Shown: piece by piece, positions 14,051-35,832 of the stretch | Numbering within the stretch: the stretch's first letter is position 1 | How the letters are laid out: every line of letters begins with the position of its first letter | Assembly (NCBI GenBank): GCA_021323315.1 | Contig: JAJTCQ010000003.1 | Span: forward strand, 1-64,000 | Direction: 5' to 3' | Length of the DNA: 64,000 nucleotides | Source: Gaiellaceae bacterium | GTDB taxonomy: Bacteria; Actinomycetota; Thermoleophilia; Gaiellales; Gaiellaceae | Translations under genes and position numbers: made by a program | The notes under the pieces: generated by a model | Seen by the model: the letters and a program-made list of their open reading frames with translations, nothing else | Database searches by the model: none | What the model was told of the DNA's origin: nothing

Positions 14051-14611
14051 ATGCTCTGGCTCTGGGTGCTGCTGGGCGTGCTCGCGGTCCTGGTCGTCCT
14101 CGTGGCGGTCGGATACAACCGTCTCGTCCGCCTGCGCAACGAGGCGAACACGGGCTGGGCCAACATCGACGTCCAGCTCCAGCGGCGTACGGACCTGATC
14201 CCGAACCTCGTCGAGGCAGTCCGCGGCTACGCGGCTCACGAGCGGGCCGTGTTCGATGAGGTCACGAGGGCGCGCGCGGCACTCCGGCAAGCGTCGACGC
14301 CGAGCGCGGCGGGTGATGCGAACGACGTCCTCACCGCTGCACTCGGCCGCCTCTTTGCCGTCGCCGAGGCCTACCCGGAGCTCGAGGCGTCCGAGAACTT
14401 CCTCCGGCTGCAGGAGGATCTCACCGACACGGAGGACAAGATCAGCGCGGCGCGGCGCTACTACAACTCGACGGTGATGCACTACAACACCGCCGTCCAG
14501 AGCATCCCGTGGGTGCTGGTCGCGAAGCCGCTCGGCTTCCGCGCGAAGGAGTTCTTCTCGGCGACGGGCGACACCGCCGTGCCACAGGTCTCGCTCGCGC
14601 CGTCATCGTGA
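14051..14611 (+). CDS. lemA: LemA family membrane protein
   Basis: 186 residues with one N-terminal transmembrane helix (MLWLWVLLGVLAVLVVLVAVGY) followed by the LemA helical domain: YNRLVRLRNEANTGWANIDVQ, QRRTDLIPNLVEAVRGY, and RRYYNSTVMHYNTAVQSIP near the end. The soluble part is predicted outside the cytoplasm. Its function is poorly understood in the family, but lemA often precedes an M48 protease, as here where the stop overlaps the protease start (GTGA). ATG start three bases after the preceding stop. Confidence 0.9.
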   Translation: MLWLWVLLGVLAVLVVLVAVGYNRLVRLRNEANTGWANIDVQLQRRTDLIPNLVEAVRGYAAHERAVFDEVTRARAALRQASTPSAAGDANDVLTAALGRLFAVAEAYPELEASENFLRLQEDLTDTEDKISAARRYYNSTVMHYNTAVQSIPWVLVAKPLGFRAKEFFSATGDTAVPQVSLAPSS

Positions 14612-15567
14612 CGCTGCAGCAGCAGATCCGCGCGAACCGGTTTCGCAGCACGATCGTGATCCTCGGGTTCGTGCTCCTCCTGGTGCTTCTCGCCGGGCTG
14701 ATCGGGCTCGTCCTCGATCTGTCGCTCGCGCTCGTGGCGCTGGGTATCGCGGCCATCTACGGGGTCGTCGGGGTCGTGAACTCTCGGCGATTGGTTGCGG
14801 GAATCACGCAGGCCCAGCCGGTCCCGCCCGACGAGCTGCGCGCCCTGCGTCGTCTCGTCGAGAACGTGTCGATCGGCGCGGGCCTTCCCGTGACACCGGA
14901 GCTTCGCGTCGTCGACGACGTGGCGCCGAACGCCTTCGCCGCGGGGCTCCGGCCGAAGTCGAGCTACCTGGGCGTGACGACGGGTCTCCTGCACACGATG
15001 CCCAAGCGCGAGCTGGAGGCAGTGCTCGCTCACGAGGTCTCCCACATCCGGAACCGAGACACCTATCTCATGACGATGGCAACGGTCTTCGCGGGCGTGA
15101 TCGCGCTCATCGGCGACATCGGCTTCCGGTCGATCGCCTACGGCGGACGTCGCAGAGGAGGAGGAGGCGCGCTCGTCGCGCTTCTGGCGATCGTCGGTCT
15201 CGTCCTGGCGCCGTACGCGGCTCTGCTCTTGAGGATGAGCCTCTCGCGCCGGCGCGAGTTCCTGGCGGACGCGGGCGCCGCGGAGATCCTGAGCGATCCC
15301 GAGGCCATGGCGCTCGCGCTCCGACGGCTCGAGCTCGACCCTACGACGGTGCGCTACTCGAATGCCTCGACGGCGCACCTGTGGGTCGAGAGCCCCACCG
15401 AGCGCGTCGATTCGCTGAAGACCGGCGTCATCGAGTTCTCCAGCCTCTTCAACACGCATCCGCCGATGCGCGCGCGAATCGCCGCGCTCGAGGAGGCCGG
15501 GGGCTTCCGGCTCCCCGAGCGCCTCGCGCCGGATGCGCCGTTCGCGGTCGAGCTCGGCCTCGCGTAG
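14608..15567 (+). CDS. M48 family membrane zinc metalloprotease (HtpX-like)
   Basis: 319 residues. Two N-terminal transmembrane helices precede the cytoplasmic-face gluzincin site HEVSH (in VLAHEVSHIRNRDT), and the third ligand Glu lies in RRREFLADAGAAE. Further hydrophobic segments lie between. HtpX-type enzymes cleave misfolded membrane proteins in envelope stress. Start is the GTG at 14608, giving a four-base overlap with lemA; an earlier in-frame start would run through lemA and lacks support. Ends with a conserved THPPMRARIAALE substrate-side motif (HPP). Confidence 0.88.
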   Translation: MTLQQQIRANRFRSTIVILGFVLLLVLLAGLIGLVLDLSLALVALGIAAIYGVVGVVNSRRLVAGITQAQPVPPDELRALRRLVENVSIGAGLPVTPELRVVDDVAPNAFAAGLRPKSSYLGVTTGLLHTMPKRELEAVLAHEVSHIRNRDTYLMTMATVFAGVIALIGDIGFRSIAYGGRRRGGGGALVALLAIVGLVLAPYAALLLRMSLSRRREFLADAGAAEILSDPEAMALALRRLELDPTTVRYSNASTAHLWVESPTERVDSLKTGVIEFSSLFNTHPPMRARIAALEEAGGFRLPERLAPDAPFAVELGLA

Positions 15568-15641
15568 CTCGCGGCCGTTTTCGACACAATCACGAGATTC
15601 GCATTCAACTAACGCCGATTCGGGTCGATAATCCATAAGCC

Positions 15642-18620
15642 GTGAAAGGTCTTCGCATCGGCAGACGCCGTGGGCGCGGAAACGAGCTGCCCGGCTCGCC
15701 CCTGGAGCTCGCCCTGCGCCCGGCGCTCGTCGACGGTCGCTGGCAGATCCCTGATCGGTTCAACTTCACCCGCGACGTCGTCGAGCCGCTCGCGCGCGAT
15801 CCGAAGCGACGCGCACTCACGTTCCTCTCGAGCGAAGGCATCATCGAGCACCGCTCGTTCATGGAGATATCCGAAGGCGCGACCATCTGGGCCGCGGCAC
15901 TCCGCGAGCGGAAGGTCGGCTCCGGTGATCGCGTCATCGTGCTTGCCGGCAGCACCGTCGATTGGCTCGAGGCGGTCCTCGGGACCTGGAAGATGGGTGG
16001 AGTCGTCGTCCCGTGCGCGCCGACGACGACGCCGTCGCAGCTCGAACGGCTCGTATCGTCCACGGACGCCGTCCTCCTCGTCGCCGAGCGCTCGCTCGAG
16101 CAGACGATCGAGCGCATGGACTTCAGCCCAGACGTGCACCTCTTCGACGAAGGTACGAGGCGGAGCACGAAGGACGTCCCGGGGGACGTGCCCTCGCACG
16201 ACTCGGCCTCCCGCGACCTCGCGTTCATCGTCTCCACGAGCGGCGTCGGAGGCTCGCCCAAGGACGTCGCGCACACGCACGGGTCGATCTTCGCCACGCG
16301 CGTCCAGACCGAGCACTGGCTCGACGCCGGCCGCGGCGACGCCGTCTGGTGCACCTCCGAGTCGACCTCGCCGTTGACGATGTGGAACTCGGTGATCGGA
16401 CCGTGGTCGCGCGGTGCCGAGGTCGTCCTGCAGCAGGGCGACTTCGACGCGGACGAACGACTCGACCTGCTGTTCAGGCTCGGCCCCAGCATCCTCTGCC
16501 AGTCACCGGCCGAATACGGGGCGCTCGCCGAGCACCCGAAGCTCGAGCGCTTCCGCTCGCCGCGCCTCCGGCGACTCGTCTCGACCGGCGACTCCCTCGA
16601 CCCCGAGGTCGTCGCGGTCTTCGAGGAGCGCTGGGGCATGTCCATCGCCGAGGGCTATGGCCAAGCGGAGACGAACATCGTCGTCGCGAACCTCGCGGAC
16701 GGCGCCGTGAAGCCCGGCTCCTGCGGCCGCGCCGTCCCAGGTCACCATGTGGCCGTCATCGACGACCAGGGCAACGAGCTTCCTCACGGCATCGAGGGCG
16801 ATCTCGCCGTCCGCGGCCGACCCCCCACGTTGTTCGCCGGCTACTGGGAGCTGCCGGAGGAGACGAAGTCGGCGTTCCTCGGCGACTGGTACCTGACCGG
16901 CGACGTCGCGCAGGTCGACGAGGAGGGGTACTTCACGTATATCGGCCGCGCGGAGGACATCATCTCCTCGAGCGGCAGGACCTTCGGACCGTATGACGTC
17001 GAGCGCGTGCTCGACGGGCACCCGGGTATCACGCGAACGGCCGTCGTCGGCATCCGCGATCTGCAGCGCGGCGGCCACTTCGTCCGAGCGTACGTCGTGC
17101 CCAAGCGGGCGGATGCCGACTCGGAGCAGGGCGAGGCCGAGCTTCGCGAATATGCCGGGGAGACGCTCCCGGCCCAGCAGGTCCCCCGCGAGATCGTCTT
17201 CGTCGAGGAGCTGCCCGTCGTCGGCTGGAAGATCAGCCGCCACGAGCTTCGCGAGCGGCCTCTCGGCGGGCGGCCGTTGTGGGAGACGCCGAGTCCGGAG
17301 CCCGACGAAGCCCCTGCCCCGTCCCCGCCGGTGCTCGACGGCGAGTTCTCGCCGCGCGTCGAGGCGACGGCCGAGCCGGTGCTACCGGTCGCGTTCGTCG
17401 AGGAGCCCGACCCGGTCGTCGCCGAGCCCGTCGCAGAGCCCGTCGAGCAGTTCGTCGAGCCTCGTCTCGAGCCCGTCGTAGAGCAGTTCGTCGAGCCGTA
17501 CGTCGTCGAGTCCGTCATCGAGGAGGTGGCCGAGCCGCTCGTAGAGCCGGAGCCAGCCGTGATCGAGCCTGTCGTCGAGCCGGAGCCAGAGCCCGTGGTC
17601 GAGCCCGAGCGTGTGGTCGAGCCCGAGCCTGTGGCAGAGCCCGAGCCTGCGGTCGAAGCCGAGCCGGTGGTCGCCGAGGCGCCTCCCGTGGTGGTCGAGC
17701 CGGAGCCGGTGGTCGAGCCGGAGCCGGTGGTCGAGCCGGAGCTCGAGCTCGCGCCCGAGCCCGAGCCCGAGCTCGTGGTGGAGACGGAACCGGAGCCGGA
17801 GGTCGAAGCACCGCCGGAGCCGGAGGTCGAAGCACAGCCGGAGCCGGAGTACGTCGAGCTGCCCGAGCCGATCGTCGCCGAGGCGGCTGCGACCGGCCCC
17901 GAGCCCGCACCGGTCGGCGAGCCCGAGCCTGACGAATCGCCGCCGGAGCCTCCCGTGCTCGTCGCATTGCCGGAGCCCGAGGACACGGCGCCCGAGCCGG
18001 AGCCGTCCGAGGAGCCACCGTTCATGGTCGGCGACACTCGCGCGCTCCCCGACTACGTCGTCGACGCGCCGGACGAGGTCCAGCCGGTCGTCCCGGAGGC
18101 CGGGCCCGAGCCCGACCTCTCGGAGCCCCTCCCCGAGTTCGTCGTCGAGCCCACTGCCGACGCCGCGCCCCCGCCGGCGCCGACCCCGGAGCCCGACGAA
18201 GAGGACGAAGACCTCGGGCCGCTTCCCGACTACGTCATCGACCCGTCGAACCCGCGTCCCGCCGTCCCCTCACCGCAAGCTCCGGCTCCTGCACCACGAC
18301 CGGTCATCGAGGCTCGGCTCCAGGACGAGCACGCCGACGAGACGCCCTCACAGGCGGCAGGCCTGTACTTCCCGCCGGTGACCGCGTTCCCGACACTGCC
18401 GACAGACCGCGACGAGGACGAGCCTCGCGAGAGCCGTCGCTCTGCACGCCCACGCCCCGCCGCCGAGCTCGGGAAGTCGAAGACCGAGCCGGCCGAGCCG
18501 GGAGACGAAGCCGCCGAGACCGACTGGATGGCGGGGCTCTCGAACCGCCTGAGCGCGTACAGCCTGTCCGAGGACGAGACGGAACCCGCCGCCGACTCGG
18601 ACGACGACGAGACGAGCTGA
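15642..18620 (+). CDS. AMP-binding (acyl-CoA ligase-like) protein with long Pro/Glu/Val-rich tail
   Basis: 992 residues. Residues about 1-540 are an ANL adenylating domain: YGQAET (339-344), [27 protein letters not shown], and GWKISR with Lys530 at the position of the catalytic C-terminal Lys. The phosphate loop is altered to [11 protein letters not shown] (198-208) instead of TSGTTGxPKG, so ATP binding may be weak or modified. Residues about 550-992 are acidic and rich in Glu, Pro, Val and Ala, with runs of EPEPVVEPE-type repeats and two PDYV(V/I)D-type segments, likely disordered. Start GTG 15642 with GATAAT nine bases upstream. The tail is far longer than anything in ordinary acyl-CoA synthetases; its role is unknown. 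Confidence 0.8.
17289..18020 (+). repeat. Degenerate GAGCCSGAGCC-type repeat coding for Glu-Pro-Val tail
   Basis: Low-complexity DNA inside the AMP-binding gene, made of short units such as gagccggagccggtggtc and gagcccgagcc in imperfect tandem. It encodes the EPEPVVEPE pattern. The reading frame stays open throughout, so it is a coding repeat likely to vary in length between strains. Confidence 0.75.
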
Positions 18621-18644: not shown

Positions 18645-18857
18645 ATGACGGATCAGGCAGCCGTGAGCCTGCTGCGCTGGTTGCAGCGGCAGCTCCGCCA
18701 GCCGACGCCGCAGCGCGAGCACCTCGAGGCCGCCATCGCAAACGACGACCCCGAGGAAGCGCGCCGCCTCGTCGCGCTCGCCCCATTCACGGATGCCCAG
18801 CGTCGGCACGTCGAGGGGCTCATCTCCCGCTGGGAGGAGGGCCGTGTCCGCAGCTGA
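18645..18857 (+). CDS. Small hypothetical protein (70 aa)
   Basis: 70 residues, charged and probably helical: LLRWLQRQLRQP near the start, then EHLEAAIANDDPEEARRLV and FTDAQRRHVEGLISRWEEG. I do not recognise a family. It has a plausible leaderless promoter (TAGCCT six bases before ATG) and its 3' end overlaps the SnoaL-like gene by 14 bases, suggesting coupled translation. Codon use and GC resemble the neighbours, which favours a real gene. Confidence 0.6.
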   Translation: MTDQAAVSLLRWLQRQLRQPTPQREHLEAAIANDDPEEARRLVALAPFTDAQRRHVEGLISRWEEGRVRS

Positions 18858-34441: not shown

Positions 34442-35832
34442 ACCTCGCGCTCAGCCTGCTCTACGCGGCCGAGCGAGGGCCTGACGCAGCGGCGCTCGTC
34501 GGTGAGAACGTGCGCTTGACCTTCGCGCAGGTGCGTGAGCGTGCAGCGCGCATCGCGGAGGGGCTCGCGTTGCGCGGTGTCGTGCCCGGCGACCGTGTCG
34601 CCTGCGTCCTCGCGAACGAGCCGGAGACGGTCGAGCTCTACTGGGGTTGCCAGTGGCTCGGCGCGGTGTTCGTCCCACTCTCGCATCGCATCTCGGACGC
34701 CGAGCTCGAGTACTGCATCGCGGACTCCGGAGCCGCGGTCGTCGTTCGCCAGCCAGGCGAAGTCGCCGAGCTCGTCGCCGCCGACGAGCATCCGGGCGCA
34801 CTCGACCGCAGCGACCGCGAGGCAGCGATCCAGCTCTACACCTCCGGGACGACCGGAAAGCCGAAGGGCGTGCCGCGCTCACATCGCGCAGAGCGTGCGA
34901 GCGGGGCCTCCCAGGTCGTCCACCACGGCCTCCACCACAGCCACCGAACGCTGGGCGTCATGCCGCTCTACCACACGATGGGCATCCACTCCCTGCTCGC
35001 CGCCTCGCTCGTCGGCGGGTGTTTCATCGCGCAGCCCGCGTGGGATCCCGAGCGGGCGCTGCGGCTCATCGAGCGGGAGCGCGTCGACACCCTGTATCTC
35101 GCGCCCACCCTCTTCTACGACCTCGTCCACCATCCGCGCTTTGTGGACTTCGACACGTCCACCGTCCGTGCCGTCGCCTACGCAGGCGCCCCGATGACGA
35201 GTGCGCTGGTCGAGCGCGTCGGCCAAGCCCTCGACCCCGAGATCTTCGTGAACCACTACGGCTCGACCGAGATCTACACGTTCTCGGTGCAGCGCGCACA
35301 GCGCGCGAAACCCGGGTGCGCCGGTGCTCCGGCGCTGAACGCCCGACTTCGCCTCGACCCGCAGGGCGAGGGCGAGATCCTCTGTCACATGAGCTCCGAC
35401 GAGGCGTTCACGGGCTACTGGAACCGGCCGGATGCCGACGAGAACGCGATTCGCGACGGCTGGTACCACACGGGAGACGTCGGCCGCCTCGACGACGACG
35501 GCGACCTCTGGGTCGTCGGGCGAGTCGACGACATGATCGTCTCGGGTGGCGAGAACATCCACCCGGTCGAGGTCGAGGACGTGCTCGCGCGGGCGCGTGG
35601 GGTCCGCGAGGTCGCGGTGGTCGGCGCACCCGACGACCGCTGGGGCCAGCGCGTCGTCGCCTACGTCGTCACGGACGCTGCCCTGACCGCGGACGAGCTC
35701 GACGCCCACTGCCTCGCCTCCGACACGGTCGCTCGCTTCAAGCGCCCTCGCGAGTACCGCTTCGTCGCAGACCTGCCGAAGAGCGCGTCTGGGAAGATCC
35801 TCCGGCGCATGCTGCGAGACGACGAGACATGA
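34438..35832 (+). CDS. AMP-dependent acyl/aryl-CoA ligase
   Basis: 464-residue ANL-family ligase activating a carboxylic acid to its CoA thioester via an acyl-AMP. Motifs are intact: phosphate loop YTSGTTGKPKGVPRSH, YGSTE, WYHTGDVGRLDDDGDL, GRVDDMIVSGGENIHPVEVE, and PKSASGKILRR with the catalytic Lys. Slightly shorter than many (500-550). Coupled by four-base overlap to the Mo-hydroxylase Fe-S gene and to a hydratase, suggesting that the product of hydroxylation, or its precursor, is handled as a CoA ester. Substrate (aryl or alkyl acid) cannot be told. Confidence 0.88.
   Translation: MNLALSLLYAAERGPDAAALVGENVRLTFAQVRERAARIAEGLALRGVVPGDRVACVLANEPETVELYWGCQWLGAVFVPLSHRISDAELEYCIADSGAAVVVRQPGEVAELVAADEHPGALDRSDREAAIQLYTSGTTGKPKGVPRSHRAERASGASQVVHHGLHHSHRTLGVMPLYHTMGIHSLLAASLVGGCFIAQPAWDPERALRLIERERVDTLYLAPTLFYDLVHHPRFVDFDTSTVRAVAYAGAPMTSALVERVGQALDPEIFVNHYGSTEIYTFSVQRAQRAKPGCAGAPALNARLRLDPQGEGEILCHMSSDEAFTGYWNRPDADENAIRDGWYHTGDVGRLDDDGDLWVVGRVDDMIVSGGENIHPVEVEDVLARARGVREVAVVGAPDDRWGQRVVAYVVTDAALTADELDAHCLASDTVARFKRPREYRFVADLPKSASGKILRRMLRDDET

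Follow-up and report, generated by a model that had tools for sequence, protein, structure and literature searches.

A tailed acyl-CoA-synthetase-like protein with degenerate catalytic positions and a conserved C-terminal tag in a genus of Gaiellaceae

Organization of the locus and of the encoded protein

Gaiellaceae are known mostly from metagenome-assembled genomes (MAGs), and the window examined here, that is, the whole 64,000-nucleotide stretch of contig JAJTCQ010000003.1 (assembly GCA_021323315.1), comes from a MAG of 1.5 Mb that consists of 48 contigs and is 53% complete. The bacterium is described as a dweller of soil and sediment. On the forward strand, the window encodes a protein in which a head of the ANL superfamily is followed by a long tail, together with neighboring genes that recur in related genomes:

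14051..14611, + strand: LemA-family gene, conserved neighbor (Pfam; ortholog loci)
14581..15567, + strand: M48/HtpX-type metalloprotease gene, conserved neighbor, start approximate (Pfam, ortholog loci)
15604..15632, + strand: promoter-like element, TTCAAC, 17 nt, GATAAT within GGTCGATAA, 9 nt ahead of the GTG
15642-18620, + strand: gene of the tailed ANL protein, GTG start, 992 aa
15792..16847, + strand: AMP-binding domain (PF00501), residues 51-402, Pfam E 1.2e-55
16998..17216, + strand: AMP-binding_C domain (PF13193), residues 453-525, Pfam E 4.7e-12
17283..18617, + strand: acidic Pro/Glu/Val-rich disordered tail, from about residue 548 to 992, about 445 residues
18645..18857, + strand: ORF of 70 aa outside any Pfam family, with conserved copies downstream in several of the orthologous loci

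The protein has the pair of AMP-binding and AMP-binding_C domains that is expected of the ANL superfamily and of MACS (Pfam, with the fold in agreement), and its head is of the medium-chain acyl-CoA-synthetase type. The best NCBIfam models stayed far under their cut-offs (317 vs 850 bits for MbcS). The closest solved structures by sequence are the 4-hydroxybutyrate-CoA ligase of Metallosphaera sedula and human ACSM2A, in agreement with the fold search. AlphaFold2 modeled the head confidently (pLDDT mostly 80-96) and the tail with pLDDT <50 nearly throughout, apart from a single weak helix at residues 961-973. The open reading frame, the Pfam domains and the tail composition thus agree with the preliminary description of this gene, made from the sequence, as an AMP-binding protein with an altered loop and an acidic Pro/Glu/Val tail; that this tail is long, repeat-rich and disordered is likewise borne out by its composition and its low pLDDT. 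The cell-surface location that was also proposed there is unsupported by the sequence, in which neither a signal peptide nor a transmembrane segment was detected (the best 19-residue Kyte-Doolittle window, 1.29, lies within the ANL domain) and which has no sortase-type or hydrophobic C-terminus. A lipid assembly site, named there as another example of a location, is conceivable. Elsewhere in the window, at about 34465-35421, another ANL gene has a fully canonical TSGTTGKPKG loop.

The element GGTCGATAA ahead of the gene resembles the -10 of sigma-28-type promoters. Its core, GG[TC]CGATAA, stands shortly before the start codon in all ten orthologs (see below), with differing sequence around it; that codon is GTG, or TTG in one genome (G003). 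An in-frame stop between element and GTG makes the element non-coding in the window, and from the distance of 9 nt the mRNA may be nearly leaderless. The element may function as a promoter and seems specific to the tailed-ANL gene. It was rejected as the mark of a regulon: the strict form, with its -35-like partner, has four matches in 11 whole genomes, all at the tailed-ANL gene, and the window contains a single match. It should be noted that this pattern catches only 4 of the 10 orthologs, so that a looser regulon may have escaped it.

Distribution and gene neighborhood

In a search of 101 genomes (the source genome and 100 relatives), the tailed protein was found in 10 of the 11 genomes of the genus at 48-68% identity; the eleventh (G008), which is 63% complete, gave no match. 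The orthologs have open frames of 874-1096 aa, and each of the ten carries the tail, so that the preliminary description's proposed refutation, a tail absent from relatives, does not apply. The frame is intact in nine; in the tenth (G001), a fragmented MAG, an apparent frameshift puts the tail end into a different frame. An assembly artefact as the source of the tail is ruled out by its presence in independent MAGs, including one assembled as a single contig (G006). At the level of the family, 18 of 103 genomes match at E 1e-110 or better: the ten orthologs of the genus, five genomes from another genus (g30), and the three genomes G037, G030 and G014. Of g30, at least G039 and G114 are missing from those 18.

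As far as the contigs of the genus reach, the usual gene order is MBL - LemA - HtpX - tailed gene - 70-aa ORF - SnoaL. The 70-aa ORF and SnoaL were undetected downstream in three orthologous loci (G001, G002 and G010), and the usual order was undetected around the homologs of G052, G037 and G030. In the loci in which the 70-aa ORF (18645-18857) was detected behind the tailed gene, it is 73-90% identical. The head evolves faster (48-68% identity) than LemA and HtpX (about 71-84%).

Catalytic positions lost and retained

The positions of the head that bear on catalysis are as follows:

16233..16265, + strand: degenerate P-loop (A3), residues 198-208, TSGVGGSPK in the window
16368..16370, + strand: residue 243 (Ser), at the position of the MACS CoA-gate Trp (alignment of homologs)
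16656..16670, + strand: A5 motif YGQAE, Thr replaced by Ala
17229..17231, + strand: A10 Lys, K530, kept in the window and gone in 3/10 orthologs

In a published survey, which includes mutants, roles are attributed to residues of the P-loop, the Thr-Glu pair of A5, the Lys of A10 and the Trp of MACS enzymes; several of the positions concerned gave impaired mutants (PMC6122825). The P-loop pattern TSG[TS][TS]G.PK is broken in the window protein and complete in none of the ten orthologs, in line with the earlier claim that the loop (residues 198-208) has been replaced relative to TSGTTGxPKG; among the other ANL ORFs of the genus that were examined, 31 of 31 have a canonical TSGTT. Also correct was the claim that the ANL domain keeps its catalytic Lys, as both the A10 Lys K530 and the loop Lys K207 are present in the window copy; the orthologs without the A10 Lys are G006, G007 and G001. 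A point overlooked in the preliminary description is the loss of the A5 Thr (YGxTE), which is gone in 9/10 orthologs, with the adjoining Glu present in 10/10. The CoA-gate Trp (Trp265 of human ACSM2A) is found in none of the ten genus orthologs, which have Ser or Thr in its place, and in 20 of 22 other aligned homologs, a set that includes one protein twice (G042 = x84); the exceptions are G117 and one distant homolog. The A7 Asp and A8 Arg (Asp421 and Arg436) and Glu343 are retained in all ten orthologs.

Across nine phosphate-side positions, each of the ten orthologs has lost between two and five (mean 3.2), mostly in different combinations. None is lost in 32 of the 33 comparison sequences and one in the remaining sequence (G052), one truncated control having been left out of this set (Mann-Whitney p 3e-10, a statistic that ignores relatedness). 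In variability the P-loop stands only moderately above the entire head (44% vs 60% pairwise identity), and it is not the most variable part, as 13% of 11-residue stretches of the head equal or exceed it. The dN/dS of the head is 0.09-0.10 in two close pairs (NG86) and 0.25-0.29 in more distant pairs; that of the spacer is 0.22-0.49. By these sequence-based estimates, the head domain is still under purifying selection.

The acidic tail and its C-terminal tag

Four short elements and a terminal tag are set within the tail:

18045..18061, + strand: LPDYVV repeat 1 (pattern search)
18129..18145, + strand: LPEFVV, repeat 2 (pattern search)
18222..18238, + strand: LPDYVI, repeat 3 (pattern search)
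18360..18392, + strand: semi-conserved tail element (ortholog alignment A3)
18525..18566, + strand: C-terminal tag, residues 962-975, with the weak helix 961-973 at low pLDDT

The spacer ahead of the tag holds diverged tandem repeats and, in the window protein, is composed of 25% Pro and 27% Asp+Glu, with a net charge of -0.23 per residue. A comparison of tail length among strains, suggested in the preliminary description, gave spacers of 314-495 aa in nine orthologs, with Pro at 24-30% and a net charge between -0.09 and -0.23 per residue. In these nine spacers, LP[DE][YF][VI] was observed 23 times vs 0.02 expected after shuffling. As a motif of other proteins it was rejected: the eight outside matches in the 11 genus genomes are single copies in unrelated proteins. 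Conservation within the tail is highest at its end, where PG.E.....WM..LS.RL.AY is invariant in nine orthologs; the terminal segment that had looked conserved in the window sequence thus has a core that is invariant or nearly so among relatives. A reading of the tag as a membrane-binding helix was rejected, as the hydrophobic moments of eight tags are not above those of shuffles (p 0.24-0.77).

Profiles of the tag were run on 101 genomes (A1) and on 103 genomes (A5 and A6); because these profiles contain the orthologs, the scores of the orthologs are high by construction. Match loci were inspected for A1 (8), A5 (16 + 7) and A6 (22, of which about 10 stretches are the match itself). The top non-ortholog match is a glutamate dehydrogenase (E 0.0155 and 0.0048). 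Apart from one protein described below, the other readable matches are internal to other proteins or in wrong frames, and the tag was rejected as a widespread targeting signal. Among the readable matches in family genomes, no further protein carries the tag at its C-terminus, with the exception of one encoded on a contig of G117 (G117:C209; L234/L241, L241:2-859). This 286-aa open fragment has a single-pass transmembrane segment, a Lys/Ala-rich N-terminal part, an A/E/R-rich tail and the mini-motif LIARLRAY, and its ANSDLIARLRAYG begins 24 residues ahead of the stop. It is absent from profile A5, with which it scored E 0.0124 per genome, a level at which about one such match is expected by chance in 103 genomes, and it is included in A6. 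Orthologs of the fragment were sought in 14 genomes and it was found only in its own, with none in the other 13. Its match is suggestive because of its C-terminal place behind a coiled tail.

Tailed homologs of a second genus and the order of events

Homologs from g30 (G116, G118, G115 and G052) share with the window protein the domain family, a long tail and the end motif, and differ from it in a near-canonical active site, another spacer and neighbors other than LemA-HtpX. Their loops read TSGTT or TSGST, GWAK and YGQTE are present, and the loop Lys is replaced by Arg in G052 and G115. The g30 genes are set among genes for an aldehyde dehydrogenase, a cupin and, in some, an SDR (named by eye). 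In G052 (L042:7303-7788) and G117 (L203:778-1242), a DUF2017 gene adjoins the tailed synthetase. The g30 tails are A/E/R-rich in G052, G118 and G117 and Pro/Glu-rich in G116, and where the contig reaches their end, they finish in LIARLRAY, MIARLRAY, LVARLQAY or IVERLRFY. A terminal mini-motif, hhxRLxAY, is therefore common to both genera, its R, L and Y invariant in 14 sequences.

In a tree of these proteins (LG+G4+F), the untailed canonical homologs of G037 and G030 fall outside the tailed set (UFB 76), G117 groups with the genus (95), and the genus forms a clade (100), with low support for the branching among the other g30 members (41 and 64). The G117 protein (L203, G117:C51) has lost AMP-binding_C from an intact frame, with no trace of the domain in other frames; it keeps the tail and tag and has the losses of the Trp and A5 Thr in common with the genus. 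As tail and tag occur on near-canonical enzymes of g30 and are both kept in G117, these sequences show that tail and tag are older than the catalytic decay and have outlasted the catalytic residues. The order read from the sequences would thus run from an enzyme through a tailed enzyme to a tailed pseudoenzyme.

A putative adaptor or scaffold and its alternatives

On balance, the protein is probably a cytoplasmic adaptor or scaffold in which an acidic spacer bearing LPDYVV repeats lies between a pseudoenzyme head and a docking tag at the C-terminus. A synthetase of the MACS type would first have acquired a long C-terminal tail ending in the short docking tag hhxRLxAY; the genus would then have shed the residues for clamping the phosphates of ATP and for gating CoA, with the fold and the adenosine/Mg-side Glu343, Asp421 and Arg436 staying in place. 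The head may have become a folded binding module, with AMP, an adenylate or an acyl compound as ligands that it possibly still holds. The spacer, acidic and of Pro/Glu type, would act as an extended, self-repelling linker that keeps the head at a distance and offers its LPDYVV repeats as contacts, and docking of the tag on a partner would give rise to a multivalent assembly. The anatomy, its conservation, the decay of the catalytic site and the purifying selection on the head are evident from the sequences; from them we infer that activity is lost, that the head binds a ligand, that the tag docks and that the protein acts as a scaffold. The non-enzymatic or scaffolding role suggested in the preliminary description gains from a decay seen in 10/10 orthologs that keep fold, tail and tag, and does so without the surface site attached to it there. 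Several observations count against a scaffold. The adenosine-side residues are kept, as is the A10 Lys in 7/10 orthologs, and the window copy has both lysines, so that some adenylation may persist. The P-loop, too, falls short of being the most variable stretch of the head. Moreover, the tailed protein is represented by only two genera, the tag is short with three invariant residues across both, the single origin of the tail stands at UFB 76, and no partner of the tag was found.

These retained residues (the Mg-binding Glu, the ribose Asp and the Arg in 10/10, the A10 Lys in 7/10), the selection on the head and a structure model that matches ACSM2A would also be expected if the protein were an acyl-CoA or acyl-adenylate synthetase that has stayed active, its ATP loop re-engineered and its substrate pocket new, with a tail that only localizes the enzyme. 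Such an enzyme is considered unlikely here, as the Thr, Ser and Lys of the phosphate clamp were lost in varied combinations without a new consensus, accompanied by losses of the A5 Thr (9/10), the A10 Lys (3/10) and the CoA-gate Trp (10/10), and as published mutants at several such positions are impaired (PMC6122825). The selective retention of adenosine-side over triphosphate-side residues would also fit a nucleotide or acyl-CoA sensor, in which the head would bind AMP or a CoA ester but not turn it over, and ligand-driven closure of its domains would switch assembly through the tail, perhaps in connection with LemA and HtpX, the membrane quality-control genes of the conserved neighborhood. 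However, neighborhood alone is a weak guide, the gene has a conserved upstream element of its own, and the C-terminal domain that would have to move is gone in G117; a sensor therefore appears quite improbable.

A decaying gene, in which the enzyme is relaxed and a low-complexity repeat is free to expand, would explain the variable length of the spacer (314-495 aa) and its diverged tandem repeats. It is hard to reconcile with frames that are open in 9/10 orthologs, a low dN/dS in the head and the conservation of both tag and upstream element, and it is rated very unlikely. Cargo targeting to a microcompartment or encapsulin is suggested by a likeness to encapsulation peptides, which are described as a short terminal helix with a disordered linker (PMC12339742). 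The architecture is alike, and BMC shell genes (PF00936) were detected in 3 of the 15 genomes that carry the tailed protein (G003:C4, G007:C48 and G052:C1). However, no shell match was found in the other 12, including the single-contig G006, and no encapsulin in any of the 15; in addition, the linker of the window protein is very long and its tag is amphipathic at the level of shuffles. Microcompartment targeting as a general function is thus largely refuted, and an encapsulation-peptide role is given next to no credence.

Significance and comparison with known systems

Kinases and proteases offer well-known examples of pseudoenzymes. A literature search that combined pseudoenzyme, acyl-CoA synthetase and AMP-binding returned no paper, and a broader one gave titles on active enzymes. 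The family described here seems to retain intermediates between a working synthetase and a protein dominated by its tail, which would make the role of the tail before the loss of catalysis testable by exchanging parts between the two genera. Should the tag prove to dock on a common partner, an organizing system in Gaiellaceae would become accessible through it.

Among characterized proteins, the head is most like the MACS/ACSM synthetases (human ACSM2A, PDB 3c5e/3gpc; M. sedula ligase 1, PDB 8biq), with which it shares the fold and the order of its two domains (Foldseek E 1.4e-48 with a target-based TM of 0.87; E 2.4e-60 and 9.5e-59 by sequence). Unlike them, the window protein lacks the P-loop Thr pair, the A5 Thr and the CoA-gate Trp and has a tagged tail of about 445 residues. 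The tail, in turn, recalls PopZ, the scaffold of the polar condensate of Caulobacter, in which two interacting ends likewise flank a disordered spacer that is acidic and rich in Pro; the spacer of the window protein is of this kind and close in composition to the published one. The PopZ spacer is described as tuning the material state of the condensate (PMC9512792). The PopZ spacer measures 78 aa vs about 405 in the window protein, no relation in sequence is apparent, the described domains of PopZ include no ANL domain, and the oligomerization helices of PopZ are not seen in the window protein, for which one weak 13-residue helix is predicted. A more far-reaching proposal is offered tentatively: in one genus a dead synthetase may have become the head of a PopZ-like scaffold, with the hhxRLxAY tag as part of a docking system that other proteins share and with relatives that record the order of enzyme, tailed enzyme, tailed enzyme without the C-terminal domain and tailed pseudoenzyme. 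The sharing of the docking system is suggested because the single-pass membrane protein of the related genome ends likewise (ANSDLIARLRAYG). By analogy, the resemblance to PopZ is a likeness in how the two proteins would work, as distinct from membership in a common family.
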